Assembly: GCF_002161215.1 (NCBI RefSeq)
Contig: NZ_NFMB01000011.1
Location: 1 to 64,000 of the forward strand
Reading direction: 5' to 3'
From: Flavonifractor sp. An10
GTDB lineage: Bacteria > Bacillota > Clostridia > Oscillospirales > Oscillospiraceae
DNA: 64,000 nt
Position 1 is the first letter of the stretch. The number at the start of each line of letters is the position of its first letter. A program made the position numbers and the translations under genes. Of the stretch, positions 3,729 to 55,314 are shown piece by piece. Under the pieces are notes generated by a model. The model searched no databases, was not told the DNA's origin, and saw only the letters and a program-made list of their open reading frames with translations.

Positions 3729-5274
3729 GATCAATTTTAGCTTTTTGAACTTCCGATATAAGTTAAAAGAACGCCCTGACGCCTACGTTATTGTGCTGAG
3801 TTGCTTTGTTTTAAGTATTATAAGCGTGTTCTATTACTACTATTTTCAAATGCTGGGACAGCTTTATGATGGACTTTCCGAGTTGGGGCTGGGAGCATTG
3901 TTTTGTCGGCTTACACTGTTTGCAGTGGCAATGATACTCTCGATTGCGAGCGCCTTCCTGCTGATCAACGTTTTTTGTTTTTCAAAGGATATAGGACACT
4001 TGCTGCTATTTCCTGTGAGGCCATGTGATGTTTTTACAGGCAAGTACATTACCGTAATCTTGTTCTGCTATGGGATTGAAACTTTACTGCTGCTTCCCGT
4101 CTGTATAGTTCACGCGCAATACATGGGAAATGTTTCTGTGATAATTACATATATCTCTGCGGCAGCAATACTTCCTCATATTGTTGTGTTCCCTTTGGCG
4201 GTTCTTGTGACAATATGCTTGAAATTTGCCATGCTTCTGAAACGCATGAGGACACTGCTGGTGGTTGCAGGAATCATAGTGTATTTTGCGGGCGGCGTGA
4301 TTGGCGGTCTATTATCCAATGGACAAATAGATGAAAAACGAGACTTATTAAACTGGGTTAATGATTTCATTGTACCATTCCCATTCTATAATCAGTATAT
4401 CGGTTTTCATCCCGTACTAAAGCTGCTCTGCATGATACTTGTTGTGATATTTATTGGCGGCTATTACTATTTGAGCTATCTTGTGATCGGAAAGAAATAT
4501 GCCATTTATGATAAAGAAGGACGGATTCGTTTATCGACGATGGAATACAGCTCGTCGTCAAAGCTGAGAAGTTATTTTAAGAAAGAGTATCAAACTTTTT
4601 TCCGTAATCCAGTATATGTCATAAATGGACTGTTTGGGATTTTTGTTACCCCCTTTTTACTGCCGCTGTCTTTCCGGATCAGTACAACCGCAGAAAGTAT
4701 AGAACAAATAAGAACCTTGGTATCTGCCCCGGAGTTTTCCTTCTATGCAATGTTATTTGCGATTGCGGTTATAGTCCTCACATCCACAATCAATGTAGTG
4801 GCTTCCAGCAGTTTTTCCAGAGAGGGGGCAAGTTTCTGGATAGCGAAGATTATTCCGTATTCATTAAAGCAGCAAGCGTTTGTGAAGGCCCTGTTTTCTA
4901 CAAGTATTTCAATGATGGGGATTATCATAAATTGCTTCATATTTAAGGTTTACTTCCACTATGGTCTTATCCAGATTGGAGTAATTGCTCTTGTTGGCAT
5001 ATCATTTGCAGCGTTATGGAACTTGATCGGAGTATGGATCGACATGAAGCGGCCCAAATTGGAATGGACAAATGAAACAGAGGCGATTAAGCAGAATGTT
5101 AATGTGGTTTTATCCATTTTGCTTTGCATCGCAATTTCAATAGGATATATATTTGCGGTTGCAAAAATGCTTCAGAATGGATTCCTTGCCGGGGGCGTTA
5201 TAACCTTTCTGTTGTGCAGCGTATGTATTTTAATTTTACTTGTGTGTAAAGGAATTGCTTCACATCGGGAGTAA
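3679..5274 (+). CDS. ABC exporter permease, large putative-exporter type
   Basis: A 531-residue, highly hydrophobic protein with about twelve predicted membrane helices and no recognisable enzymatic domain. It matches the general layout of putative ABC exporter proteins that pair with a stand-alone ATPase. The start at 3679 (or 3682) has GGAGG upstream within the ATPase gene, so the two are translationally coupled through a 50-bp overlap. Substrate unknown; the SdpI-like gene downstream suggests an antimicrobial peptide. Confidence 0.75.
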   Translation: MMYRWAKIFQLSKAIGKINFSFLNFRYKLKERPDAYVIVLSCFVLSIISVFYYYYFQMLGQLYDGLSELGLGALFCRLTLFAVAMILSIASAFLLINVFCFSKDIGHLLLFPVRPCDVFTGKYITVILFCYGIETLLLLPVCIVHAQYMGNVSVIITYISAAAILPHIVVFPLAVLVTICLKFAMLLKRMRTLLVVAGIIVYFAGGVIGGLLSNGQIDEKRDLLNWVNDFIVPFPFYNQYIGFHPVLKLLCMILVVIFIGGYYYLSYLVIGKKYAIYDKEGRIRLSTMEYSSSSKLRSYFKKEYQTFFRNPVYVINGLFGIFVTPFLLPLSFRISTTAESIEQIRTLVSAPEFSFYAMLFAIAVIVLTSTINVVASSSFSREGASFWIAKIIPYSLKQQAFVKALFSTSISMMGIIINCFIFKVYFHYGLIQIGVIALVGISFAALWNLIGVWIDMKRPKLEWTNETEAIKQNVNVVLSILLCIAISIGYIFAVAKMLQNGFLAGGVITFLLCSVCILILLVCKGIASHRE

Positions 5275-5318
5275 TTGCCTTTCAAAATATGTCAATCAAT
5301 CAAAAGGAGGAAGAAGCT

Positions 5319-5525
5319 ATGAGTAAGAAGAACTTGATCCCTGTGGCGCTATTGATCGGAGCCTTTGTCATTTTGTTTGTGGCAACATTTTTTCTTCCAG
5401 ACAAGATACCTTTCCATTTTGATGCAAATGGCGAGGCAGGATGGTATGCAAGCAAGTATTTTATTCTGCTGCTTACGCCGGTTCCGTATTTGATTTACCA
5501 TCAATTCACGCGAAAGAAAAAATGA
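5319..5525 (+). CDS. Small DUF1648-like membrane protein
   Basis: A 68-residue protein with two hydrophobic helices. Between them lies FLPDKIPFHFDANGEAGWYASK, the pattern of DUF1648, a domain found at the N-terminus of SdpI-type immunity proteins. AAAGGAGG precedes the ATG at 5319; an upstream in-frame ATG at 5289 has no such site. It sits between the exporter and the SdpR/SdpI pair and probably helps form the immunity complex. Confidence 0.7.
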   Translation: MSKKNLIPVALLIGAFVILFVATFFLPDKIPFHFDANGEAGWYASKYFILLLTPVPYLIYHQFTRKKK

Positions 5526-5556
5526 ATACAGTATTATAGAAAGGAGATTCGTTTAG

Positions 5557-5856
5557 ATGACTACTGTATTCAAAGCTCTATCTGATGATACCAGACGACA
5601 AATCCTAAAGCTGCTTGCGAATGGTGATATGACAGCGAAAGAGATTTCTGAAAACTTTACGATTTCAAAGCCTGCCATATCAAAGCACCTTGACATTTTG
5701 AAAGAAGCAAGGTTAGTGACAAGCGAGCGGACGGGGATGTCCGTTACTTATTCCCTGAATGCTTCTGTATTGCAAACAACTTTAGGCGCATTTTTGGAGT
5801 TTTTTGATACCAATAAAACGGTAGGAAAAGAGGGAGACGAGAATGAAACTATATAG
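5557..5856 (+). CDS. ArsR-family repressor, SdpR-like
   Basis: A 99-residue winged helix (VFKALSDDTRRQILKLLANGDMTAKEI, then FTISKPAISKHLDILKEARLV, then the wing RTGMSVTYSLN). This is the SdpR subgroup of the ArsR family: no metal-binding cysteines, and gene overlap with an SdpI gene. In Bacillus subtilis SdpR represses sdpRI until SdpI senses the SdpC toxin; the same circuit is inferred here. It overlaps sdpI by 14 bp. Confidence 0.85.
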   Translation: MTTVFKALSDDTRRQILKLLANGDMTAKEISENFTISKPAISKHLDILKEARLVTSERTGMSVTYSLNASVLQTTLGAFLEFFDTNKTVGKEGDENETI

Positions 5857-6457
5857 AAGTCTGAATACGATATTCTTGATTATATTCATCATAGGGACGG
5901 TTCTGTGTTTTAAGTACCTTCCCAGTGAAATCCCTTTGTTCATGCAAAGCCCTTCCCGCTGGGTTTTTATCGGGATTTGTTTTGCTCTTTTGTTAGCGTT
6001 AGCTATTGTGGCATTTTTCCCTCATAAAATCTCCAAAAGTGATAACAAAGTGAGAAATGATATTACTCTGACTGCGATTAACCTCTTGGGGCTTGGAGTT
6101 TTTCTTTTCTATTTTGTCACGGTAGCTAAATACTGTGGTTTGCAGATGAATTACATGAAAGGCATAGTGCTTATCGTGGGAGGCGTAATGGTATTGGTTG
6201 GGAATTTATTGCCACAAATGCCTTACCGCAGCCGCATTGGGTTTAAATTGCCTTGGATTCTAAAGGATAAACTATGCTGGCAAAAAACACATCGGTTTGC
6301 TGGATACACGGCGATTCCTTTTGGGATTATTCAATGTTTGCTTGTCTTGTTTGTGCAAAACAACAATCTTATATTTTTGCTGGGAATTGGTCTTTGGATT
6401 ATAGCTGTTTGCATATACTCATTGATTATCTTTTGCCAAATCACGAAAAAGATATAA
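5843..6457 (+). CDS. SdpI-family immunity membrane protein
   Basis: A 204-residue protein with about six membrane helices. The segment GNLLPQMPYRSRIGFKLPW followed by KDKLCWQKTHRFAG is the conserved SdpI loop. SdpI protects against the SdpC killing peptide and sequesters SdpR at the membrane. No SdpC-like toxin gene is visible, so this is probably a resistance rather than a producing locus. The ATG overlaps the end of sdpR. Confidence 0.85.
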   Translation: MKLYRSLNTIFLIIFIIGTVLCFKYLPSEIPLFMQSPSRWVFIGICFALLLALAIVAFFPHKISKSDNKVRNDITLTAINLLGLGVFLFYFVTVAKYCGLQMNYMKGIVLIVGGVMVLVGNLLPQMPYRSRIGFKLPWILKDKLCWQKTHRFAGYTAIPFGIIQCLLVLFVQNNNLIFLLGIGLWIIAVCIYSLIIFCQITKKI

Positions 6458-6551
6458 CCCAAGAATAATGGGCGCATTTGCTATTGACAGTTATACCCGT
6501 CCGTGCAGATTAGCAAATAATATATTTGGTTTGAAACAACGGAGATGCGCC

Positions 6552-6836
6552 ATGATGAAGGAGTCTGAAAACACACTGGATAAGAAATTTCAAGTGTTGT
6601 CAAATCGAACCAGGCGAGAAATCCTGATGCGGTTAAACCAAGAATCACACTCTGCCGGAGAGATTGCAACTTGCTTTCAGATAACACCTGCCTCAATTTC
6701 TTATCATCTTTCCTTATTGCAAGAGAGTGGGTTGATTTCCTGCCACCGAGTAGAAAGACGGAGGATATATCGCCTCAACCATGATGCACTTGATGAATTG
6801 TATCTATGGTTACAAAATCTATATAAAACTAAGTAA
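6552..6836 (+). CDS. ArsR-type winged-helix regulator (copy 1)
   Basis: A 94-residue protein: LDKKFQVLSNRTRREILMRLNQ, SAGEIATCFQITPASISYHLSLLQESGLISCHRVERRRIYRLN. It is a close paralogue of the gene at 12964-13257; both are followed by the GC-rich winged-helix cassette. The start at 6552 is chosen for the CGGAGATG site just upstream. TTGACA at 6484-6489 is a possible -35, but no good -10 is at the right distance. Confidence 0.8.
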   Translation: MMKESENTLDKKFQVLSNRTRREILMRLNQESHSAGEIATCFQITPASISYHLSLLQESGLISCHRVERRRIYRLNHDALDELYLWLQNLYKTK

Positions 6837-6878
6837 AATAAATAATCAAGTAACTATACAAGGAAAAATTTAAGAGGA

Positions 6879-7289
6879 GGTGATCCACATGGGAAGTTTA
6901 TAATTCTATCCTTCAGCGACGGTGAGGACGCCATCTTTGCAAACACTGTGACGGCCCTTGCTTCTGTCGCAGACTTCTCCACGGTGGCCGCCTCCGCAGA
7001 CGCACCACTGCTCTTTGGCTCTCTGCAAATCGACCCGCAGCGCAGGCTGGTGTGGCAGGCCGGCCAAATGGTAGACCTAACGCCAATGGAGTTTGACATT
7101 CTGCTCCTGCTGGCCCGCCGGCCAGGGCAGGTGTTCACCGCCCGTCAGATCTACGAAGCTGTCGCCGCGGACTCCTTTGACGCCGGCTGGACCGGGATCT
7201 CCAGCATGGTCTATAAACTCCGCCGCAAGCTTGGCTCCGACATCATCGAGACGGTGCGGGGCCACGGCTACCGTTTCACACCAGAATAG
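6879..7289 (+). pseudogene. Winged-helix (OmpR-type) cassette copy A, start out of frame
   Basis: AGGAGGTGATCC, a full match to the anti-Shine-Dalgarno tail, precedes ATG 6889, but that frame stops after three codons (TAA). The winged-helix frame begins one base back, at GGG 6891, and runs to 7289 as about 132 residues: KFIILSFSDGEDAIF at the N-terminus, then an OmpR/PhoB-type effector domain (LTPMEFDILLLLARRPGQVFTARQIYEAV, SSMVYKLRRKLG, IETVRGHGYRF). There is no receiver domain. A GTG at 6948 could start a shorter form. One extra G after the ATG would restore the frame. It may be a pseudogene or be expressed by recoding. GC content is far above its neighbours. Confidence 0.6.
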
Positions 7290-7295
7290 CAAAAC

Positions 7296-7326
7296 AGCGC
7301 CACCTCGGCTCTACCGGGGCGGCGCT
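7296..7326 (+). terminator. Hairpin after cassette A
   Basis: AGCGCCACCTCGG pairs imperfectly with CGGGGCGGCGCT. The same hairpin, with changes, follows copies B and C. Confidence 0.6.
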
Positions 7327-7342
7327 ACTGTTATATTGCAAA

Positions 7343-7381
7343 GAGGTATGAGCGCCAGCGACAATGCAGCTCTCATACCTC
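7343..7381. repeat. Second copy of the GAGGTATGAG hairpin
   Basis: GAGGTATGAG/CTCATACCTC with a 19-base loop closely matching that of the terminator at 1399-1437. The T-run is missing here, so it may be a relic of a duplication or insertion event. Confidence 0.6.
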
Positions 7382-7465
7382 AGGTGAAGGCAAAATTACA
7401 ATGAAATTCTGCAAATAGCTGTACCTCAAAAATTAAGAGATGCAGCTATAATTTTTGTCAGTCTA

Positions 7466-7494
7466 TTGACATCAGCGTATTTCCGTTATATACT
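7466..7494 (+). promoter_or_regulatory. Promoter of the GntR-ABC operon
   Basis: TTGACA, 17 bp, TATACT. Just downstream, ACTGT (7492-7496) and ACAGT (7511-7515) form an inverted repeat with a further ACAGT, a candidate operator for the GntR protein. Confidence 0.8.
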
Positions 7495-7550
7495 GTTATC
7501 ATAGAGCAATACAGTTAATACAGTGCATAACAGAGAGGAGGAGAGATAGA

Positions 7551-7928
7551 TTGGAGATTGTCGTAAGCAACAAGGCAAGCCAGCCGCTATATGAACAAAT
7601 CGCATCTCAAGTTAAAGCCGCTATTATGAGCGGTGAACTAAGTGCCGGTGAGCCACTTCCTTCGGTGAGAGCTATGGCAAAATCCTTACGCATCAGTATT
7701 TTGACTGTTCAAAAAGCCTATGGTTGCCTACAAGATGATGGGTTCATCGAAATAACGGCAGGAAAAGGCTGCTATGTATCAGCACAAAATCAGGACTTCT
7801 ACCTGGAAGAACAACAAAAGAGAATAGAAGAAAAATTTGCAGAGGCAATCGAGATTGCCCGCACAAGCGGAATATCTCTGGATAAACTGACCGAACTGCT
7901 TACACTTATGTATCAGGAGGATGAATGA
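7551..7928 (+). CDS. GntR-family regulator, YtrA type
   Basis: A 125-residue protein: an N-terminal winged helix (PLYEQIASQVKAAIMSGELSAGEPLPSVRAMAKSL, then VQKAYGCLQDDGFIEITAGKGCYV) and a short helical C-terminus. This short layout is the YtrA subfamily, which represses adjacent ABC operons and is often relieved by cell-wall antibiotics. The start is TTG with GGAGGAGAG upstream. It overlaps the ATPase gene by 4 bp. Confidence 0.85.
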   Translation: MEIVVSNKASQPLYEQIASQVKAAIMSGELSAGEPLPSVRAMAKSLRISILTVQKAYGCLQDDGFIEITAGKGCYVSAQNQDFYLEEQQKRIEEKFAEAIEIARTSGISLDKLTELLTLMYQEDE

Positions 7929-8791
7929 TGACTGATAATGTTTTAGAAATCCGAGAGCTATCAAAAGACTATGGCGATTTTGTTCTTGACAGAGTGAGCT
8001 TTGCTTTACCTCGCGGCGTAATTATGGGCCTAATAGGAGAGAATGGGGCTGGCAAATCTACGACTATCAACTGTATTTTAAATGAAACACAAAAAAGCGA
8101 TGGTCAAGTCCTCATCTTTGGCAAGGATCATATTGCAGACGAAATTGAGATCAAGGATAAACTTGGCGTCGTATTTGATGAGAACCACTTCCCTGACATT
8201 TTCACGCCAGAAGAAATCGGAAAATTCATGTGTGGCATTTACTCTGGCTGGGATTGGCAGCTCTACCATCAGCACCTTGAAAAGTTTGAATTGCCAAAAA
8301 ACAAGAAAATAAAAGACTTCTCCAAAGGCATGAAAGTGAAGCTGGCCTTTGCCGTAGCATTATCTCACAATGCAGAACTACTGATTTTGGATGAAGCTAC
8401 CAGCGGCCTAGACCCAATTATTCGCGATGATGTGTTAGACATGCTGATTGATTTCGTTCAAAACGAAAAGCACTCTGTACTGGTATCCTCTCATATCACC
8501 AGTGACTTGGAAAAGGTTGCAGATTATATTACTTTCATCCATAAGGGCAAACTAGTCTTTTCTCATGAGAAAGACGATTTGATTGACAATTACGGAATAG
8601 CCAACTGTAAAGCTGCCGTATTTGATGCTATGGACAAATCGCAGATTATTGCCTATCGAAAAGAAGATTACCAATATAAGGTCCTAGTTCGGAATCGGCA
8701 CACAATCACTAAAAAGAACCCAGATGTAATCGTTGGACCTGCTACGATTGAAGAAATCATGCTATTCTATGTAAAGGGGGAAATGAAATGA
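7925..8791 (+). CDS. ABC transporter ATP-binding protein, YtrB/BcrA type
   Basis: A 288-residue ATPase: Walker A GENGAGKSTT, signature FSKGMKVKLAFA, Walker B LLILDEATSGLDP, H-loop SSHIT, and a C-terminal extension of about 80 residues typical of BcrA/YtrB proteins. Operon position between a YtrA-type repressor and an ABC-2 permease suggests export of, or resistance to, a peptide antibiotic. ATGATG at 7925 gives two adjacent start choices. Confidence 0.85.
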   Translation: MMTDNVLEIRELSKDYGDFVLDRVSFALPRGVIMGLIGENGAGKSTTINCILNETQKSDGQVLIFGKDHIADEIEIKDKLGVVFDENHFPDIFTPEEIGKFMCGIYSGWDWQLYHQHLEKFELPKNKKIKDFSKGMKVKLAFAVALSHNAELLILDEATSGLDPIIRDDVLDMLIDFVQNEKHSVLVSSHITSDLEKVADYITFIHKGKLVFSHEKDDLIDNYGIANCKAAVFDAMDKSQIIAYRKEDYQYKVLVRNRHTITKKNPDVIVGPATIEEIMLFYVKGEMK

Positions 8792-9432
8792 AAGGGTTAC
8801 TGACAAAAGATTTTCTGACAGTCAAGAAAAAATACGGAATTGCCCGCCTTATCATGGATCTCGCCATTATCGCTGCGTTGATGATTATTCTGGAAGGAGC
8901 TGGTTCTATTTACATCAGTTTTCTTCTTGTTCCGTTGGAAATTGCTTCTATGATTATTACTCTTGCAAACTCCGATGAACAATGGAAATGGAGTAAATAT
9001 GCCGTTGCTCTGCCACTTTCCAAAAAACAAATCGTTACCAGCCGATATGCCTTTGCAGGCATTGGTGCTGTCATTGGATTGTGTGTTGCGCTTGTAGTAA
9101 ACACCATTTCCTATTTCTGTTTTCCCGCATATCGATATGGGTTTTATCTTTTCTTGTCGGTAGCCTCTTTCTGTATTGTGCTGCTGTTCCTCGCCTTTAT
9201 TTTGCCCTCTAACTATTGGATGGGTGTCAATGCAGGATTTGCGGTGATGTTCATTTTGATTATCCTGCTGGTTGTACTTGGAATTTGGTCAAAAGTAACT
9301 GATAACGCAATTATGGGATTTATCGTAGAGCATTTTGATTTAAGCATGGCTATCGGCTTTATTGGCGTTCTGGTACTCTTTGCAATTTCCTATATTCTAT
9401 CAGTCGCACTCTTTAAGAAAAAATATTGCTAA
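8788..9432 (+). CDS. ABC-2 type permease
   Basis: A 214-residue membrane protein with about six helices. It starts in a 4-bp ATGA overlap with the ATPase. It has the size and layout of the permeases paired with YtrB-like ATPases (N-terminal MKGLLTKDFL, helix pairs, basic C-terminus). Probably the membrane half of the exporter. Confidence 0.8.
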   Translation: MKGLLTKDFLTVKKKYGIARLIMDLAIIAALMIILEGAGSIYISFLLVPLEIASMIITLANSDEQWKWSKYAVALPLSKKQIVTSRYAFAGIGAVIGLCVALVVNTISYFCFPAYRYGFYLFLSVASFCIVLLFLAFILPSNYWMGVNAGFAVMFILIILLVVLGIWSKVTDNAIMGFIVEHFDLSMAIGFIGVLVLFAISYILSVALFKKKYC

Positions 9433-9519
9433 TTAAGCCGCTTGTCACTTTCAATGTCTCTGCACAAATCATTTGAAAGAAGTTTTAGAACAAACTCCAC
9501 ACCAATAGAGGAAGGAAGA

Positions 9520-9726
9520 TTGAAAAATATAGTCCGACAACTTCGAGTAGAAAATGGGTTGACTCAAACAGATCTAGGGCAAATGGTTAATGTCTCCCGC
9601 CAGACAATTTATGCTGTAGAATCAGGTCGTTTCGATCCATCTATTTGGCTGGCTTTTGATATTGCGCAACTATTTGATATGAAAATTGAAGATGTATTTG
9701 ACTTCACTGATAGAATTCGGAAGTAA
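9520..9726 (+). CDS. Small XRE-family regulator
   Basis: A 68-residue Cro-like protein: RQLRVENGLTQTDLGQMVNVSRQTIYAVESGRFDPS and then a hydrophobic tail ending DVFDF. This is the short family usually found beside ABC or membrane-protein genes. TTG at 9520 is preferred because AGGAAGG lies upstream and family members begin near this point; the frame is open further upstream to 9442. It is followed directly by cassette B. Confidence 0.75.
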   Translation: MKNIVRQLRVENGLTQTDLGQMVNVSRQTIYAVESGRFDPSIWLAFDIAQLFDMKIEDVFDFTDRIRK

Positions 9727-9729
9727 TTG

Positions 9730-10142
9730 GAGGTGATCCACATGGGAAGTTTATAATTCTATCCTTCGGCGATGGCGAGGACGCCATCTTTGCAAATACC
9801 GTGACAGCCCTTGCTTCAGTCGCAGACTTTTCCACGGTGGCCGCCTCCGCAGATGCACCACTGCTCTTTGGCTCTCTGCAAATCGACCCGCAGCGCAGGC
9901 TTGTGTGGCAGTCCGGCCAGATGGTGACCCTGACGCCGATGGAGTTTGATATTCTTCTCCTGCTGGCCCGCCGACCGGGACAGGTGTTCTCCGCCCGCCA
10001 AATCTATGAAGCTGTTGCTGCGGACTCCTTTGACGCCAGCTGGACGGGGATATCCAGCATGGTCTATAAGCTCCGGCGCAAGCTGGGCGCCAGCATCATT
10101 GAGACAGTGCGGGGCCACGGCTACCGCTTCACACCAGAATAG
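9730..10142 (+). pseudogene. Winged-helix cassette copy B, start out of frame
   Basis: It has the same layout as copy A: GGAGGTGATCC, ATG at 9742, TAA after three codons, and the winged-helix frame one base back from 9744. Over the 113 residues after the internal GTG (9801) it differs from copy A at about six positions. Most base changes between the copies in the N-terminal stretch are at third codon positions of the long frame. It follows the small XRE gene. Confidence 0.6.
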
Positions 10143-10147
10143 CAGAA

Positions 10148-10186
10148 CAGCGCCGCCTCGGCTCTACCGGGGCGGCGCTGCTGTTA
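10148..10186 (+). terminator. Hairpin after cassette B
   Basis: CAGCGCCGCC pairs with GGCGGCGCTG with further outer pairs. A longer variant of the hairpin after copies A and C. Confidence 0.6.
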
Positions 10187-10274
10187 TATCGGTATGTTCA
10201 ACAATTTGGCTCGATAGTGTAATCGACAGCAACCTTTCTTTATTTTGGGGAATGAGGGAGTAAAATTTCGGGCT

Positions 10275-11033
10275 TTATAACTGCTTTTTATTAAATGCCC
10301 GGATTGCTGCCGCTAAAAATACCACAGATAAAACCACTGAAACAATAAATGGAATAAGAAACTCCGTCATTGAAATCTCACCTGAAATCAGGTCAACATT
10401 TCGTGAAGTGAGGACAACCGGGTTAAAGGCAGATAACGGTTTTACAACACTTAAAACAGAGAACAGGGCTACAATCCCGCCAGTAAACAGGATACTTGTA
10501 AAAGTCTGCTTGAATAGAACACAACCGAGTATGAGGATGCTAAGATAGAGAAATCCAATCATCCACATAAAAAACGCAGACGGTACAACATTTGAAAGTG
10601 AAGCATCTGGCCAAAGGTAATATGTATATCCATAGGCACCTACAAAGCTCACCCAAAAGCTAACCGTCATAGATACTGCTGCTACGGTGTACTTTGCCAT
10701 AATCACAGATGGCCTTGCCAATCCCTTTGTCACCAGCAGTAGCAATGTCCCTTTGGAATACTCACTGGACATACAGCTTCCAAACAGAATGATAAATGCG
10801 CTAAATCCAATGCCGGATATGTTTTTAAAGAATTGCTGCCATGCGTCAAGGGCGACAGGTTCCTCGGTGATTTCTAATCCGGCTCCAAATGCAGCTATAA
10901 TTTCCGGCGTGAATTTTGCCAGAAAAGCACTGGACATTCCGAAAACCGCAAAGATTGCAAACAGGATTAAAAAGCGGTAGTTTTTTAGATTTTCTACAAA
11001 CTCTTTTTTTACAAATGCAATATAGCCTTTCAT
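10275..11033 (-). CDS. ABC-2 permease
   Basis: A 252-residue membrane protein with about six helices and the N-terminal pattern GYIAFVKKEFVENLKNYRFLIL typical of ABC-2 permeases. It contains the short cytoplasmic segment SSEYSKGTLLLLVTKGLARPSVIMAKY that follows the second helix in this family. Last gene of a three-gene leftward operon; 4-bp overlap with the ATPase gene. Confidence 0.8.
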   Translation of the reverse strand: MKGYIAFVKKEFVENLKNYRFLILFAIFAVFGMSSAFLAKFTPEIIAAFGAGLEITEEPVALDAWQQFFKNISGIGFSAFIILFGSCMSSEYSKGTLLLLVTKGLARPSVIMAKYTVAAVSMTVSFWVSFVGAYGYTYYLWPDASLSNVVPSAFFMWMIGFLYLSILILGCVLFKQTFTSILFTGGIVALFSVLSVVKPLSAFNPVVLTSRNVDLISGEISMTEFLIPFIVSVVLSVVFLAAAIRAFNKKQL

Positions 11034-11947
11034 TTTATCACCTCCAAAAATAGGCTTTCAAGCGACGGCTCCATAAGTTCCACCTTGACCGGCACAAGGT
11101 CTGCTTCGGCTAAAGTGGAGAAGATGGTATGCTGGGCCTTTTTCATCTCCCGGCTGTGTATTACAATTTCCCGCCCCTTTTCTTCTGATCCGTTCAGGAG
11201 CGATTGTCCTGTCATACATTCTTTGAAATGCTGTAAATCGGCCTCGGTTGAAAATTCAATTAACAGGCTGTCATGGCTATGCAACGCTTTGATTTCCGAA
11301 AGCGTTCCGCCAACAGCAATATTACCGTCATTCAAGAGTGCCACATGATCGCAAATGCGCTCCACATCGGATAAAATATGCGTTGAAAACAAAACCGTTG
11401 TTGTCCCACGGATTTTATAAAGAATGTCCAAGATTTCTTTTCTTCCCACCGGGTCAAGGGCGCTGGTAGGTTCATCACAAATCAGCAGTTTAGGATCAGC
11501 CAATAACGCCTGTGCAATTCCAAGGCGCTGTTTCATACCACGCGAATAACCGCCAACACGCTTTTCTACGCCATCAAGACCGACAAGGGAAAGTAGCTTT
11601 TTTCCCTTTTGAGAAATGCTTTCTTTGGGAAGGCCAACAATTTCTCCGCACAGTGTAAGATACTGCATTGCAGTCATATAGTTATAAAATTCCGGCACAT
11701 CCGGCAAATATCCAATATACTGATTTGTTTTGGTCTGCCCAAAGCGAACCGGTTCATTACACACAAGGATTTCTCCCTGATCGGGCTGCAAAAGCCCCAA
11801 AACCATTTTCATTGTTGTTGTTTTTCCTGCACCGTTTTGTCCAATGAAGCCAAAAACGCTCCCCTCTGGAACAGACATATTCAGATCTTTTATAATTTGC
11901 TGCTGTCCAAAACTTTTAGATAGATTGCGGATAGAAAGCACATTCAT
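11030..11947 (-). CDS. ABC transporter ATP-binding protein
   Basis: A 305-residue ATPase: Walker A GQNGAGKTTT, signature YSRGMKQRLGIAQ, Walker B LLICDEPTSALDP, H-loop STHIL, and a C-terminal accessory domain of about 80 residues. It is similar in build to bacitracin-type (BcrA) ATPases. Overlaps both neighbours by 4 bp, giving tight coupling of PLDc_N protein, ATPase and permease. Confidence 0.85.
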   Translation of the reverse strand: MNVLSIRNLSKSFGQQQIIKDLNMSVPEGSVFGFIGQNGAGKTTTMKMVLGLLQPDQGEILVCNEPVRFGQTKTNQYIGYLPDVPEFYNYMTAMQYLTLCGEIVGLPKESISQKGKKLLSLVGLDGVEKRVGGYSRGMKQRLGIAQALLADPKLLICDEPTSALDPVGRKEILDILYKIRGTTTVLFSTHILSDVERICDHVALLNDGNIAVGGTLSEIKALHSHDSLLIEFSTEADLQHFKECMTGQSLLNGSEEKGREIVIHSREMKKAQHTIFSTLAEADLVPVKVELMEPSLESLFLEVIK

Positions 11948-12147
11948 TTTTCCTCACCTCTCCCAAAAACAAAATAGATAATCGGGCCAAACATAAGGAT
12001 AACCAGAGAGATTACAAGCCACATAGCCCTGTTCCCAAAGCGATAATGCGGATGCCGGAGAATATGCCGGACAGCGGCCACGGCAAGGATCACATCAATC
12101 ACAAAGATGGGAATAAGAAGCGGAAATATTTCCTGCAACAAAGACAT
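11944..12147 (-). CDS. Small PLDc_N-domain membrane protein
   Basis: A 67-residue protein with two membrane helices and the PLDc_N pattern (RFGNRAMWLVISLVILMFGPIIYFVFGR). This domain is found at the N-terminus of cardiolipin synthases but also stands alone next to ABC exporters, where its role is unknown. AGGAGGTAAA precedes the ATG. Confidence 0.8.
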   Translation of the reverse strand: MSLLQEIFPLLIPIFVIDVILAVAAVRHILRHPHYRFGNRAMWLVISLVILMFGPIIYFVFGRGEEK

Positions 12148-12210
12148 ACCAATTTACCTCCTATTGTTATAATTCGTATCGATATTTGCGGGGGTTCGAC
12201 ATTTTCGCCT

Positions 12211-12259
12211 TAATATTCCCGCACAGGTTATATTACCACTATGGAAACAAAAAAGCAAT
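12211..12259 (-). promoter_or_regulatory. Leftward promoter overlapping a 25-bp dyad
   Basis: Read leftward, TTGCTT, 17 bp, TAATAT. The -10 lies in one arm of the dyad TAATATTCCC-N5-GGTTATATTA (12211-12235). The same dyad architecture overlaps the -10 of the gene at 12964. Confidence 0.5.
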
Positions 12260-12267
12260 ACCCTCCC

Positions 12268-12296
12268 TTGACTTTTTATTTCCGAAATGATAATAT
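12268..12296 (+). promoter_or_regulatory. Promoter of the regulator at 12317
   Basis: TTGACT, 17 bp, TAATAT. The predicted transcript starts within a few bases of the AAAGGAGG site. Confidence 0.75.
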
Positions 12297-12316
12297 TTTC
12301 AAAAAGGAGGTTGAAC

Positions 12317-12871
12317 ATGGGCAGTAAGAATTTGAATGAAAAGATTATGGAATGTATTTCAAATCCGGCCAAGAGCCGCCTGCTGATAGAAATAATGCGT
12401 CGAGGGGAAGTTACCGCAAAGTATTTGGCTGAAAAATGCTCAGATATTCCTCAAACTACACTATATCGTAATTTGAAACGAATGACCGATGATGGACTAT
12501 TGAAAATCGTTAATGAAACACCAATACGCGGAACAGTTGAAAAGACTTACGCATTAACTTTTGACCCGTCTGATCCTCCATCAGTTCTCGGAGAAAATTC
12601 TGGTGCCATTTATATGCAGATGTTCTTTCAGTATTTTTTGACCTTCGCCAAGATTTTTCAAGAATACTGCGACACACCGGGAATTGACATAAAAAGGGAT
12701 CGGTCTGGTCTTAGCCTTTCTCATGTTTATTTGACAGATGAGGAACTGGAAAAAGTGGTATCGGATATTGCTCAAATCTTATATCCACTTCAAGATAATA
12801 AACCAGAGCCGGGTCGCAGATTAAGAACGGTTGGATTGATTATCTCCCCGGAGCATAAAGCGGACGAATAG
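12317..12871 (+). CDS. Winged-helix transcriptional regulator (HTH_20-like)
   Basis: A 184-residue protein with an N-terminal winged helix: ISNPAKSRLLIEIMRRGEVTAKYLAEKCSDIPQTTLYRNLKRMTDDGLLKIV, then the wing RGTVEKTYALT. The C-terminal half (residues about 85-160) is a helical domain with aromatic residues (YMQMFFQYFLTFAKIFQEY) and may bind ligand. AAGGAGG lies six bases before ATG 12317. It is divergent from the PLDc_N-ABC operon and is its likely regulator. Confidence 0.75.
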   Translation: MGSKNLNEKIMECISNPAKSRLLIEIMRRGEVTAKYLAEKCSDIPQTTLYRNLKRMTDDGLLKIVNETPIRGTVEKTYALTFDPSDPPSVLGENSGAIYMQMFFQYFLTFAKIFQEYCDTPGIDIKRDRSGLSLSHVYLTDEELEKVVSDIAQILYPLQDNKPEPGRRLRTVGLIISPEHKADE

Positions 12872-12906
12872 AGAAAAACGCCCTATATGCACAGGGCGTT
12901 TTCTCT
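12871..12906 (+). terminator. Rho-independent terminator
   Basis: GAGAAAAACGCCCT pairs with AGGGCGTTTTCTC, ending in a T-rich tract directly after the stop codon of the regulator. Confidence 0.75.
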
Positions 12907-12935
12907 TGACTTAATATTCCCATAATGGTAATATT
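12906..12935 (+). promoter_or_regulatory. Promoter of ArsR copy 2 with overlapping dyad
   Basis: TTGACT (12906-12911), 17 bp, TAATAT (12929-12934). The dyad TAATATTCCC-ATAAT-GGTAATATT covers spacer and -10, a typical repressor position. Confidence 0.7.
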
Positions 12936-12963
12936 TTGTTATCGGGAACAATGGAGATACATT

Positions 12964-13257
12964 ATGAGAAATGGGCGCGAAAATGCACTGGACAAAAAAT
13001 TCCATGCGTTATCAAATTCAACCAGACGAGAAATTCTAACGCGGCTAAGCAAAAAACCACACTCTGCCGGAGAGATTGCAGGATATTTTCAGATAACACC
13101 TGCCTCGATTTCTTATCATCTTTCTCTGTTGCAAAGGAGTGGCTTAATTTGCTGTCGTCAAGTAGAAAAACAGAGGATATATAGCATCAATCGCGGCGCA
13201 TTGGATGAAGTGTATCTGTGGCTAATGGGGCTATATAATGCTAAGTCAAATAAGTGA
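12964..13257 (+). CDS. ArsR-type winged-helix regulator (copy 2)
   Basis: A 97-residue paralogue of the protein at 6552-6836, with LDKKFHALSNSTRREILTRLSKK and an identical helix-turn-helix core ITPASISYHLSLLQ. The start at 12964 follows TGGAGATAC. Its promoter carries a dyad that recurs before the neighbouring ABC operon, so one protein probably controls both. It is followed by cassette C, as copy 1 is by cassette A: the pair seems to have been duplicated together or re-inserted at the same type of site. Confidence 0.8.
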   Translation: MRNGRENALDKKFHALSNSTRREILTRLSKKPHSAGEIAGYFQITPASISYHLSLLQRSGLICCRQVEKQRIYSINRGALDEVYLWLMGLYNAKSNK

Positions 13258-13280
13258 TTGTAAATTATTCGAGCAAAAAT

Positions 13281-13698
13281 TAGGAGGTGGGGGAAAATTG
13301 GGAAATTTATAATTCTATCCTTCAGCGACGACGAGGACGCCATCTTTGCAAACACTGTGACGGCTCTTGCTTCTGTTGCGAACTTCTCCACAGTGACCGC
13401 CTCCGCAGATGCCCCGCTGCTCTTTGGCTCTCTGCAAATCGACCCGCAGCGCAGGCTTGTGTGGCAGTCCGGCCAAATGGTAGACCTGACGCCGATGGAG
13501 TTTGATATTCTGCTCCTGCTGGCCCGCCGGCCGGGGCAGGTGTTCACTGCCCGCCAGATCTATGAAGCTGTCGCCACGGACTCCTTTGACGCCGGCTGGA
13601 CGGGGATCTCCAGCATGGTCTATAAGCTCCGGCGCAAGTTGGGGACTGGCATCATCGAAACAGTGCGGGGCCACGGCTACCGCTTCACAACAAAATAG
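13281..13698 (+). pseudogene. Winged-helix cassette copy C, start out of frame
   Basis: AGGAGGTGG and TTG 13298 take the place of the strong site and ATG of copies A and B; the TTG frame again ends at TAA after three codons. The winged-helix frame starts one base back (GGG 13300) and reads GKFIILSFSDDEDAIF and then the OmpR-type domain to 13698. It is over 90% identical at protein level to copies A and B. Confidence 0.6.
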
Positions 13699-13704
13699 AA
13701 GAAC

Positions 13705-13739
13705 AGCGCCGCCTCGTTAGAATCGAGGCGGCGCTACTT
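13705..13739 (+). terminator. Perfect 12-bp terminator hairpin after cassette C
   Basis: AGCGCCGCCTCG, 7-base loop, CGAGGCGGCGCT, then ACTTTT. Confidence 0.75.
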
Positions 13740-13751
13740 TTCACAGTTCAG

Positions 13752-39659: not shown

Positions 39660-39785
39660 TTAAATATAGATACTGCGCGGAGCGCGGACAACCAAGGAGG
39701 CAGGTTACTGACGGCTCATGGGGCTGGGACTCGCCCCGCCGCGCCCGGACTACCAACCGGGCCGTGTTTTTCGCTTCGCGGGGCC
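39660..39785 (-). ncRNA. Structured leader of yjdF, candidate riboswitch
   Basis: On the transcribed strand GCCCGG-TTGGTAGT-CCGGGC is a perfect hairpin, followed by a GGGGC-GAGTCCCA-GCCCC hairpin inside a CGGC/GCCG stem, then CAGTAACCTGCC and TTAAGGAGG. ACGGC and GCCGT could close the whole domain. I cannot match it base by base to the yjdF motif; the proposal rests on gene identity and visible folding. Confidence 0.4.
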
Positions 39786-46298: not shown

Positions 46299-46475
46299 GC
46301 CTCGCAGAGTTCCGCCGTCCGCAGACGGCGGAATCAAATAAAAGTCCGTCATTTCCGGCGACATGCGCGTCGGAAATGACACTTCTCATGGCGGAAGGGC
46401 CGACTGTTTTGTCAGAAACCGAGGCCCTTCCGCCATGCAGCCCTTTTCGAACAAGCGGCTTTGCCGCTTGTTCGA
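46299..46475 (+). repeat. 177-bp four-hairpin repeat, copy 1
   Basis: Conserved opening GCCTCGCAGAG, then stem 1 (46310-46333, loop CGCA), stem 2 (46348-46380, GTCATTTCCG/CGGAAATGAC), stem 3 (46387-46437, 14 bp) and stem 4 (46447-46475, 13 bp, loop TTT). It ends 4 bp before the stop codon of the EnvC-like gene. An inverted copy of equal length lies at 55138-55314. Confidence 0.85.
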
Positions 46476-46479
46476 GTGT

Positions 46480-47739
46480 TTACCACGGATGTGTCAAACT
46501 CAGGCTGGGGAACTTGCTCTCGGGATCCACCCGGGTGTAGTTGTCCCGCACCTCCAGGTGGAGGTGGTTGCCGGTGGAGCTGCCGGTGGTGCCCACGTAG
46601 CCGATGGTCTGGCCCTGGGTGACCATATCCCCCTCGCTCACCGCCCGGGAGGACATGTGGGCGTAGAGGGTGGAATTGCCGTTGCCGTGGTCGATGACCA
46701 CGTAGTTGCCGTAGGAGTAGTGGTAGGCGGAGGTGACCACCTGTCCGCTCTTGCAGGCCAGGATGGGGGTATTGCCGGGGGCGGGGATGTCGATGCCGGT
46801 GTGGCTGTGGGCCTCGCCGGTGATGGGGTGGATGCGGTAGCCGAACAGGGAGGACAGCCGGTAGTAGCCCGGCAGGGGCCACAGATAGCTGGTCTCCGAG
46901 TCGATGGTGATGTTGTTCTGCCGCCGCTGCTCCTCCAGCTGCTTCTGCTTCTGGGCGATCTCCGCCTGGATCTCGGCGGCCGCCTCGCTCTCCGCGTCCA
47001 GCTGGCGGTTGACCTCCGCCACATCGGCATTGATCTGATCCAGCAGCTTCTGGGCCTCGGCCACCTTGGCCTGCTGCTCGGCCTGCTTGGCGGCCTGCTG
47101 ATCCCGGGCCGCCTGCTCCTCCGCCCGGGAGGTCTCCAGCTGGGTGCGCAGGGCTATGATCTCCTCCCGGATGGCGATGAGCTCGTCCATCACCTGGTTG
47201 TCGTAGTCCATCACCGCGTCGATGTCGGCCAGGCGATCCAGCAGCTCGGAGAAGCTCTCCGAGTTGAAGAGGATAGACCAGTAGGACACCGTCCCCTCCT
47301 CCTCCATGGCGCGCACCCGCTGGCAGAACAGCTCGTACTGGGCCTCCTCATTGGCCTCGGCCTCGGCCTGCTCCTCCTCCTTCTGGGCGATCTCCGCGTC
47401 ATAGTAGGCGATCTGCTTGTCGATGTTCTCGATCTCATTGTTGATGGCGTCCAGCTGGGCCTGGAGGAGCTGCCGCCGCTGCTGGGCCTCCGCCTGATCC
47501 GCCTCCACGTCGGCCAGCTGCTCCTCCAGCTCGTCCTGCCGGGCCTGGCTGGCCGCCTGCTCCGCCTTGAGGGCGTCGATCTCGCTCTGGGTCACCGCCC
47601 CGGCGCCGCCCAGGATCATGGTCACCATGGGCAGCAGGAGCAGCAGGGCCAGCACCGCCGCCAGCCCGCCGAAGAGCACCCGGCGCCACTCCACCTTCTG
47701 CTTTTTGGGTTTTTGATTGGGATTCTGCTTCTTTGCCAC
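46480..47739 (-). CDS. EnvC-like murein hydrolase with M23 domain (paralogue 1)
   Basis: A 419-residue protein: a membrane anchor (LFGGLAAVLALLLLLPMVTMIL), a long coiled coil (residues about 50-270) and a C-terminal LytM/M23 domain with zinc ligands HSHTGID and HLHLEV. The coiled coil is the kind that docks on FtsX; FtsEX drives opening of the hydrolase. Because both zinc motifs are intact it may itself cut peptidoglycan bridges, unlike E. coli EnvC. Tandem paralogue of the next gene. Confidence 0.88.
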   Translation of the reverse strand: MAKKQNPNQKPKKQKVEWRRVLFGGLAAVLALLLLLPMVTMILGGAGAVTQSEIDALKAEQAASQARQDELEEQLADVEADQAEAQQRRQLLQAQLDAINNEIENIDKQIAYYDAEIAQKEEEQAEAEANEEAQYELFCQRVRAMEEEGTVSYWSILFNSESFSELLDRLADIDAVMDYDNQVMDELIAIREEIIALRTQLETSRAEEQAARDQQAAKQAEQQAKVAEAQKLLDQINADVAEVNRQLDAESEAAAEIQAEIAQKQKQLEEQRRQNNITIDSETSYLWPLPGYYRLSSLFGYRIHPITGEAHSHTGIDIPAPGNTPILACKSGQVVTSAYHYSYGNYVVIDHGNGNSTLYAHMSSRAVSEGDMVTQGQTIGYVGTTGSSTGNHLHLEVRDNYTRVDPESKFPSLSLTHPW

Positions 47740-47767
47740 GTCGCCGCTCCTTTTTCCGTCAGTCCGT

Positions 47768-49012
47768 TTACCAGTTGTAGGCCCGGATCAGGGGGAGGCC
47801 GGTGTAATAGGCCTCCGGATCCGTCCGCTGGCCGTTGATGCGCACCTCAAAGTGGAGGTGGGCCCCCTTCACGTTGCCGGTGGTGCCCACAGCGCCGATG
47901 GTCTGGCCCTGCTGAACCAGCTCCCCCTCGCTCACCGCCCGGGAGGACATGTGGGCGTAGAGGGTGGTGGTGCCGTCCCCGTGGTCGATGACCACGAAGT
48001 TGCCGTAAGACCAGTTGACCCCGGTGCCGTACTCCGACATGATCACCTGGCCGCCCCGGGCCGCATAGATGGGTGTGCCGGTGGAGGCCGCCACGTCGAT
48101 GCCGGTGTGGCTGTGGGGCACGTGATCCACCGGGTGCATCCGGAACCCGAAGGCGGAGGTCAGCTTCCTATTCGCCGACGGCAGGGGCCACATCCAGCCA
48201 TTGCCGGCGGGGGGCAGCTGCACGTTGTTCTGCTTCCGCTGCTCCTCCAGCTGCTTCTGCTTGCGGTCGATCTCCGCCCCGATGGCGGCCCACGACGCGT
48301 CCTCCTCGTCCAGCTGGCGGTTGACCTCCGCCACGTCGGCGTTGAGCTCGTCCAGCAGCGCCTGGGCCTGGGCCACCTTCTCCTGCTGGCGGGCCTTCAC
48401 GGCCTCCTGGGCCTCCTTGGCCGCCTGCTCGGCGGCCCGGGCCTCCTCCAGCTGGGCCTGGACGGCCTCCAGCTCCTGCCGGACGACGATCAGCTCGTCC
48501 ATCACCCGGTTGTCATAGGCCATCACCGCGTCCACATCGGCCAGGCGATCCAGCAGCTCGGAGAAGCTGCCGGAGTTGAAGAGGACAGACCAGTAGGACA
48601 CCGTCCCCTCCTCCTCCATGGCGCGCACCCGCTGGCAGAACAGCTCGTACTGCTCCGCCTCCCGGGCCTCGGCCGCCTGGCGCTCCGCTTCCTTCCGGGC
48701 GATCTCCCCGTCGTACCAGGTAAGCTGGTCGTTGATGCTCTCCAGCTCGGCGTTGATGGCGTCCAGCTGCTGCCCCAGCAGCTGGCGCTGCTCCCGGGCC
48801 GCGTCCCGGTCGGCCTCCGCCCGGGTCAGCTGCTCCTCCAGCTCCGCCTGCCGCTCCTGACTCTCCGCCTGCCTGGCCTTGAGGGCGTCAATCTCGCTCT
48901 GGGTCACCGCCCCCACCGGCAGGGCCGAGCCCCACACGGGGGCCAGCAGGGCCGCCGTCAGCAGGGCGCAGGCGCCCCGCCGCACCCTGTGCTTTACACG
49001 GTTTCCAGACAT
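47768..49012 (-). CDS. EnvC-like murein hydrolase with M23 domain (paralogue 2)
   Basis: A 414-residue protein with the same plan as its neighbour: N-terminal signal/anchor, a coiled coil starting VTQSEIDALKARQAESQERQAELEEQLTRAEA, the shared block EQYELFCQRVRAMEEEGTVSYW, and an M23 domain with HSHTGID and HLHFEV. It starts 18 bp after ftsX, so this copy is the likelier direct FtsX partner. The two copies share long stretches of identical sequence in coiled coil and catalytic domain. Confidence 0.88.
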   Translation of the reverse strand: MSGNRVKHRVRRGACALLTAALLAPVWGSALPVGAVTQSEIDALKARQAESQERQAELEEQLTRAEADRDAAREQRQLLGQQLDAINAELESINDQLTWYDGEIARKEAERQAAEAREAEQYELFCQRVRAMEEEGTVSYWSVLFNSGSFSELLDRLADVDAVMAYDNRVMDELIVVRQELEAVQAQLEEARAAEQAAKEAQEAVKARQQEKVAQAQALLDELNADVAEVNRQLDEEDASWAAIGAEIDRKQKQLEEQRKQNNVQLPPAGNGWMWPLPSANRKLTSAFGFRMHPVDHVPHSHTGIDVAASTGTPIYAARGGQVIMSEYGTGVNWSYGNFVVIDHGDGTTTLYAHMSSRAVSEGELVQQGQTIGAVGTTGNVKGAHLHFEVRINGQRTDPEAYYTGLPLIRAYNW

Positions 49013-55137: not shown

Positions 55138-55314
55138 TCGAAAAAGCGGCAAAGCCGCTTTTTCGAGAAAGGCTGCATGGCGGAAGGGACTCGATTTCTT
55201 GCGAAATTGTCGCCCCTTCCGCCATGAGAAGTGTCATTTCCGAGGCGCATGTCCCCGGAAATGACAGGTTTTGATTTTATTCCTGCGGCTGCGGCCGCAG
55301 GAACTCTGCGAGGC
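55138..55314 (-). repeat. 177-bp four-hairpin repeat, copy 2
   Basis: Inverted relative to copy 1 at 46299-46475 and identical in length. Stem 4 is at 55138-55166, stem 3 at 55176-55226, stem 2 at 55233-55265, stem 1 at 55280-55303, and the conserved end GCCTCGCAGAG reads leftward to 55314. Stems differ from copy 1 by paired substitutions. Confidence 0.85.

Follow-up and report, generated by a model that had tools for sequence, protein, structure and literature searches.

Off-frame start codons in a family of stand-alone winged-helix regulators from Flavonifractor sp. An10: a possible case of initiation-coupled -1 recoding

In Staphylococcus aureus, conserved AUA and AUU start codons are accompanied by extended Shine-Dalgarno sequences (AUA in infC and ccpN, AUU in cvfC1), and the output from AUU and AUA starts is about 10% of that from AUG in poor medium, one gene reaching up to 30% when the medium is rich (PMC13009471). 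In programmed -1 frameshifting, a Shine-Dalgarno sequence 9 to 14 nucleotides (nt) upstream acts as a stimulator, as in dnaX and insertion sequence (IS) elements, and in an IS element a single Shine-Dalgarno sequence serves both initiation and frameshifting (PMC5009743 and PMC4066793). Here we describe three gene copies in a 64,000-nt stretch of DNA from Flavonifractor sp. An10 (contig NZ_NFMB01000011.1, positions 1 to 64,000, forward strand; the whole stretch is hereafter called the window), which encode a small winged-helix regulator and whose apparent start codons lie one base out of frame with the encoded protein.

In all three copies, as read from the sequence, an ideal ribosome-binding site is followed by ATG or TTG, three further codons and a stop codon, and the winged-helix frame (the long frame) begins one base back (Table 1). 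A preliminary description of this DNA had noted this offset, along with a ribosome-binding site, a winged-helix frame and a GC hairpin in each cassette; the offset was confirmed at the start codons at 6889, 9742 and 13298, and the other elements are present in all three copies. The extended Shine-Dalgarno sequence is complementary to the 3' end of the 16S rRNA. The long frame is already open 5' of the start position in every copy, encodes 133 residues and is followed after its stop by the hairpin. No canonical in-frame start is present at the site or within 10 codons upstream in copies 1 and 2. The in-frame codon that would occupy the P site is the near-cognate ATT in copy 3 and CAT, which is not near-cognate, in copies 1 and 2. 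Over 300 nt, copies 2 and 3 are 90% and 89% identical to copy 1.

Purifying selection acts on the long frame from codon 2 onward. The ratio of nonsynonymous to synonymous substitution rates (dN/dS) was 0.08-0.11 over codons 2-130 in the three pairs of window copies, and the excess of synonymous changes that the preliminary description saw between copies is thus real. When 18 sequences with the offset (offset sequences), all from one clade, were pooled, the corresponding ratio for polymorphisms (pN/pS) over codons 2-9 was 0.04 in the long frame versus 0.63 in the off-frame, and over codons 10-20 it was 0.38 versus 1.07. All 19 offset sequences encode Gly-2 and Lys-3, the latter with synonymous changes only, and the off-frame peptide is variable among the same sequences (MGSL, LGSL, LGNL, LGSW and MGK). 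The matched long frames contain no internal stop. Selection from codon 2, together with the invariant Gly-2 and Lys-3, argues strongly against decay and against an internal start, and less decisively against a restart at codons 5 or 6. The in-frame GTG of codon 21 was rejected as an internal start, as GTG or ATG occurs there in only 9 of 21 close sequences and selection acts upstream. Sequence comparison makes it very likely that these are live genes with selected non-standard starts.

Two peptide patterns were compared with 84,980 species genomes, yielding 56 loci, 21 of them close (at least 66% identity). Some of these 21 are identical at the start; 16 are offset, 3 have an in-frame TTG and 2 belong to a sibling group with ATG. 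The preliminary description had regarded plain pseudogenes as the outcome if all homologues were in frame and the synonymous excess were absent; neither is the case. All 19 offset sequences have ATG or TTG as their off-frame codon; 18 of them form one clade, so these counts are not independent. The nineteenth (L101), at 35% identity, reads TAT GGG AAA, that is, off-frame ATG GGA AAG TGA, the same arrangement as in the window copies; it was included in the 59-member and 19-sequence counts and excluded from the clade tree and from pN/pS, and another locus, L204, was excluded from the clade analyses. The in-frame first triplets of the offset copies are CAT, CTT, ATT, TTT and TAT. By parsimony, the first triplet changed about nine times within the 21-sequence clade (4, 6 and 3 changes by position; 4, 5 and 3 on a second tree), and each state either kept an off-frame ATG or TTG or created an in-frame TTG. 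In a rough neutral simulation, the chance of such a set of states was 0.0014, or 0.009 when GTG was counted as well. The preliminary description had also asked whether homologues have four Gs after the start. Four Gs with an in-frame TTG do occur in 3 of the 21 close loci, but the sister pair L052 and L053 differ in frame by substitution, with the Shine-Dalgarno spacing unchanged. These two sisters lie behind the same 490-residue gene in two genomes, with an off-frame TTG in one and an in-frame TTG in the other.

The window copies are stand-alone OmpR-type DNA-binding domain proteins, judging from domain and structure comparisons. The Trans_reg_C winged helix (PF00486) was matched in all three, above cutoff (E 3.6e-19 to 6.7e-18), and was the sole match at E 0.001 (residues 59-130 of 133), so that no receiver domain was matched; among the NCBIfam matches listed (25 per protein), all are C-terminal, starting at residue 20 or later. 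The predicted structure (mean predicted local distance difference test score, pLDDT, 87) places the effector domain from near residue 40, after an extended segment and one helix, and its best Foldseek matches include PhoP, YycF, VicR and PhoB. The proteins thus share the PF00486 effector domain with OmpR/PhoB response regulators but differ from them in having no receiver match and only about 38 residues before the effector domain.

To describe start sites across the family, 59 distinct stand-alone members were collected with one profile (frames of 100-260 residues, score of at least 60, match from profile position 3 or earlier). Rows identical over 170 nt were merged, so that L048 stands for copy 3 in most counts; near-identical rows are still present. 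At the start position, 27 members have a canonical triplet (ATG 17, GTG 7, TTG 3), 18 are off-frame and 14 have another triplet (ATC 6, ATA 2, GTC 2, and ATT, TTC, ACG and AAA one each). Judging by their position, the non-canonical triplets would act as starts. A canonical in-frame start is absent at the site and within 10 codons upstream in 21 of the 59 members (12 offset, 9 other), and only one of 47 full-length response regulators, picked by a sequence motif, lacks such a codon within ten codons. Off-frame and other non-canonical starts are associated with an extended Shine-Dalgarno sequence, defined by a rough score as at least 3 paired bases (wobble allowed) after the core. Of the offset members, 16 of 18 have it, as do 11 of 14 members with other non-canonical starts (27 of 32 together); it occurs in 4 of 27 canonical members and in 5 of 54 ordinary genes selected for having a GGAGG or AGGAG core, contrasts that are inflated by shared descent. 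The members with ATC include near-identical genes in four genomes and a more diverged set (L115, L164 and L169). The near-identical ones, L104, L105, L126 and L128, carry in-frame ATC AAA CGA behind a strong Shine-Dalgarno sequence, and one of their four genomes (G487) belongs to another family. Members with normal starts (L127 and L129-L131 on contig C18 of genome G350, and L006, L009 and L010 in the An10 genome itself) all lie behind one gene type, whose product we take to resemble a DtxR-type metal regulator at its C-terminus.

How could the long frame be translated? The preliminary description had left four readings open; recoding near the start or a non-standard start is now favoured, with non-standard triplets at the start position in the wider family as well, and slippage on the G run and decay have become unlikely. 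The reading that we prefer, tentatively though it may well be correct, is a -1 slip on GGGA after off-frame initiation, serving as a start-site throttle. The extended Shine-Dalgarno sequence would strongly recruit the ribosome, and we infer that initiation takes place on the off-frame codon: the initiator tRNA would pair with ATG or TTG one base out of frame, and GGA would be read next. The Shine-Dalgarno hybrid, 10 nt 5' of GGGA (12 nt in copy 3) and thus within the 9-14 nt of -1 frameshifting signals, would still tether the message, and a minority of ribosomes would slip one base back, from GGA to GGG, to read the long frame as (M)-G-K-F-I-I-L. The remaining ribosomes would terminate after a peptide of 3-4 residues. 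Low output is presumably the purpose of start sites that would be kept deliberately poor, and relatives with in-frame ATC, ATA, ATT, GTC or TTG may arrive at similarly low output. More broadly, and with slightly less confidence, it is possible that this is a mobile regulator family with initiation-coupled -1 recoding, in which the ribosome, once the first peptide bond is formed, is drawn one base backwards by the initiating Shine-Dalgarno sequence itself. The protein would then be made solely via the codon-2 slip, and this conserved throttle would be evolutionarily interchangeable with near-cognate starts.

Consistent with such a slip, a conserved zero-frame start is combined with a conserved coding sequence in the -1 frame. 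All 19 offset sequences have GGG as codon 2 (18 of 18 with copy 3 merged into L048), so that a glycine tRNA sitting on GGA in the P site can move back by one base and pair with GGG; among other family members with Gly at this position, it is GGG in 9 of 25. Several points weigh against the slip. Two of the clade's three members with an in-frame TTG also have GGG at codon 2, which could therefore be a founder effect. With AAG at codon 3, 16 of the 19 offset sequences (including copies 1 and 2) have no classical heptamer. Under the rule for E. coli, as given in PMC4066793, the A-site tRNA re-pairs from ZZN to ZZZ, and G_GG.A is outside the six efficient tetramers of the same source. This rule fits only 3 of 19 sequences, those with AAA at codon 3: GGGAAAT in copy 3 and L048, which are identical over the start region, and GGGAAAG in L101. 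As AGT to AAG gives no A-site re-pairing, a single-tRNA slip aided by the tether must be assumed. No clear stimulatory structure just 3' of the slip site was found: folds of about 100 nt around the three starts were no better than shuffles (z 0.1 to 0.9), a classical downstream stimulator was dropped as a candidate, and longer folds predict instead a long stem that takes in the slip site. The off-frame stop also occurs in in-frame clade members, so the stop itself is no evidence. Finally, a canonical in-frame codon of some kind lies within 10 codons upstream in 6 of the 18 offset members, and the membership of nearly all offset sequences in one clade reduces the weight of the counts.

Other routes to the long frame have to be weighed against the -1 slip. 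Ribosomes that start off-frame might finish the 3-4 residue peptide and reinitiate at the overlapping in-frame ATA or at the next ATT (codons 5-6). In favour of this, 18 of the 19 offset sequences have their off-frame stop overlapping codon 5, and 17 of the 19 have ATA as that codon; the L101 off-frame stop overlaps in-frame GTG and ATG, and an in-frame ATA or ATT occupies the start position of some relatives. However, the constancy of Gly-2 and Lys-3 beside a varying off-frame peptide, a codon 5 of GTA (no start codon) in L052, and the presence of ATG at codon 5, a single change away, in L101 only make reinitiation unlikely. It is quite unlikely that the Shine-Dalgarno sequence drives initiation at the in-frame first triplet whatever its identity, with the off-frame ATG or TTG being incidental. 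In its favour, the spacing from the core to that triplet is 7 nt in 15 of 18 offset members (and in 8 of 14 members with other non-canonical starts and 13 of 27 canonical ones), 7 nt is the commonest spacing in ordinary genes (13 of 41), and copy 3 has ATT there. Against it, the off-frame codon stands at a spacing of 8 nt, likewise ordinary (7 of 41), neither CAT nor TAT matches AUG at any position in register, and each observed state of the triplet retains an off-frame ATG or TTG or creates an in-frame TTG.

An in-frame start upstream of, or within, the Shine-Dalgarno sequence could be used in part of the family, given an ATG six codons up in L004, L054, L055 and L060 and a TTG one codon up in L051 and seven codons up in L045. 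We regard this as improbable, since none is found within 10 codons in 12 of 18 offset members, including the window copies (copy 3 via L048), and L039 has ACG where others have the upstream ATG. Plain pseudogenes or recent decay of the cassettes, proposed in the preliminary description and suggested by the out-of-frame start itself, are very improbable in view of the low dN/dS between copies, the pN/pS over codons 2-9, matched frames free of internal stops, and an offset that is common to two families of the Genome Taxonomy Database (GTDB; f1 and f26) and to 16 of 21 close loci. The same description had considered a phase switch by G-run slippage. There is a short G run beside the start, and some in-frame relatives have four Gs; however, the run is exactly GGG in all 19 offset sequences, and a run of three Gs is ordinarily too short for slippage, which makes a phase-variable tract or transcriptional slippage extremely improbable.

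Copies 1 and 3 follow an ArsR-type gene and copy 2 an XRE-type gene, with 39, 2 and about 25 nt between the stop of the neighbour and the Shine-Dalgarno sequence of copies 1, 2 and 3, respectively. The ArsR-type genes directly 5' of copies 1 and 3 (6535-6834 and 12947-13246) are 76% identical at the DNA level, and therefore these copies may have been duplicated jointly with their neighbour. Two further copies are present in the genome: a fourth that is off-frame (TTG GGA AGT TTA TAA), and a fifth of the sibling type, which begins with an ordinary ATG. Close relatives are rare: at the thresholds used, and in samples that overlap, they were found in 2 of 20 genomes in the genus, 4 of 400 in the family and 4 of 394 in the order; these are the An10 genome itself, G162 and G218 (off-frame copies) and G009 (sibling type only), G218 being placed in a different genus from the window genome. 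The close loci come from records of Pseudoflavonifractor, Fournierella, Anaeromassilibacillus, Lachnoclostridium, Enterocloster, Bittarella and Anaerotruncus and from two metagenome bins; some relatives thus stem from such bins. Positions 3888-10286 of the window (6399 bp) match a Pseudoflavonifractor sp. An85 record with 100% identity, so this stretch has probably moved between genera recently. The mobility envisaged in the preliminary description is supported for a larger piece of DNA, and not for a 450-bp cassette on its own. Viral spread was considered and rejected: protein and DNA-pattern scans of IMG/VR gave no relative, and three scans with distant relatives as the query gave 2 loci in all. 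L101 is an unverified phage-labelled record from human faeces. An element-borne tRNA was also rejected, as none lies within the window, the remainder of the moved DNA not having been searched.

A second brake on translation may exist. In copies 1 and 2, the Shine-Dalgarno sequence, start and slip site are predicted to pair with codons ~28-36, and longer folds gave z-scores of -3.3, -2.6 and -1.7 in copies 1, 2 and 3. The diverged L041, L052 and L062 folded no better than shuffles (z 0.6, -0.1 and 0.7), and parts of the same pairing are present in them. Pair counting over 20 sequences indicated moderate covariation, with 7 pairs changed on both sides versus 3.0 in shuffles (1 in 500 as high) and 0-6 in slid controls, although related sequences can exceed such shuffles without structure. 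Pairing of the Shine-Dalgarno sequence and start was calculated for 58 of the 59 members, with the ATT member L048 counted together with the 14 others. It exceeded the mean of synonymous shuffles in 16 of 17 members classed as offset, L101 being below (means 0.80 versus 0.67; other non-canonical 0.62 versus 0.59; canonical 0.71 versus 0.66). Folding energies did not stand out from those of these shuffles (offset members, mean z -0.7). The stem is thus suggestive, not established; if real, it might be opened by ribosomes on the upstream gene.

Table 1. Positions of the features of the three gene copies in the window.
Feature	Positions	Strand	Basis and remarks
Copy 1 extended Shine-Dalgarno sequence GGAGGTGATCC	6876..6886	+	sequence; GGAGG core 6876-6880
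Copy 1 off-frame start and mini open reading frame ATG GGA AGT TTA TAA	6889..6903	+	ATG 6889-6891, TAA 6901-6903
Copy 1 long frame, solo winged-helix regulator, in-frame first triplet CAT	6888..7289	+	PF00486, dN/dS
Copy 1 GC hairpin 3' of stop	7296..7326	+	sequence
Copy 1 predicted long stem of Shine-Dalgarno, start and slip site with codons ~28-36	6876..6995	+	fold z -3.3; pair counting; suggestive only
Copy 2 extended Shine-Dalgarno sequence GGAGGTGATCC	9729..9739	+	sequence; GGAGG core 9729-9733
Copy 2 off-frame start and mini open reading frame ATG GGA AGT TTA TAA	9742..9756	+	ATG 9742-9744, stop 9754-9756
Copy 2 long frame, in-frame first triplet CAT	9741..10142	+	PF00486, dN/dS
Copy 2 GC hairpin	10149..10179	+	sequence
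Copy 3 Shine-Dalgarno core GGAGG	13283..13287	+	sequence
Copy 3 off-frame start and mini open reading frame TTG GGA AAT TTA TAA	13298..13312	+	TTG 13298-13300, stop 13310-13312
Copy 3 long frame, in-frame first triplet ATT (near-cognate)	13297..13698	+	PF00486, dN/dS
Copy 3 GC hairpin with T-rich tail; same stem, different loop	13705..13735	+	sequence

Elsewhere in the window, an azaaromatic (yjdF) riboswitch was recognized at 39668-39783 on the minus strand (72.9 bits against a gathering score of 45). At 5557-6457, an ArsR-type gene overlaps a gene of the SdpI/YfhL family, a pair that presumably resembles the SdpR-SdpI immunity pair. The window also contains an inverted repeat (46299-46475 and 55138-55314; 177 nt, 86% complementary) and two families of direct repeats within 46502-48523.

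The present family resembles the S. aureus genes in coupling an extended, start-proximal Shine-Dalgarno sequence to a start that lowers output; one of the S. aureus cases is a helix-turn-helix regulator, and the ATC, ATA and ATT relatives are the members most like them. The difference is that the poor codon is in frame there, whereas here the start codon that follows the Shine-Dalgarno sequence is one base out (16 of 21 close loci). With programmed -1 frameshifting, the loci share the distance of the Shine-Dalgarno sequence and the proposed direction of the shift. They differ in that the shift would take place on the second codon with the initiating Shine-Dalgarno sequence as the stimulator, that the zero-frame product is only 3-4 residues long, and that 16 of 19 sequences have no classical heptamer. 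IS911 is reportedly the subject of a paper on AUU initiation and frameshifting. In a literature search covering open-licence papers, no title described an off-frame start of this kind.

If the shift is real, the rRNA-mRNA pairing that recruits the ribosome could also set the reading frame just after initiation, and no classical slippery heptamer would be needed. Gene finders would then be likely to miss or truncate the members of this family of mobile-element regulators, 32 of 59 of which have no canonical triplet at the start position. The series of ATG, GTG, TTG, ATC, ATA, ATT, GTC and off-frame starts within one family would provide a natural test set for the interplay of extended Shine-Dalgarno sequences, initiator pairing and early frame maintenance.

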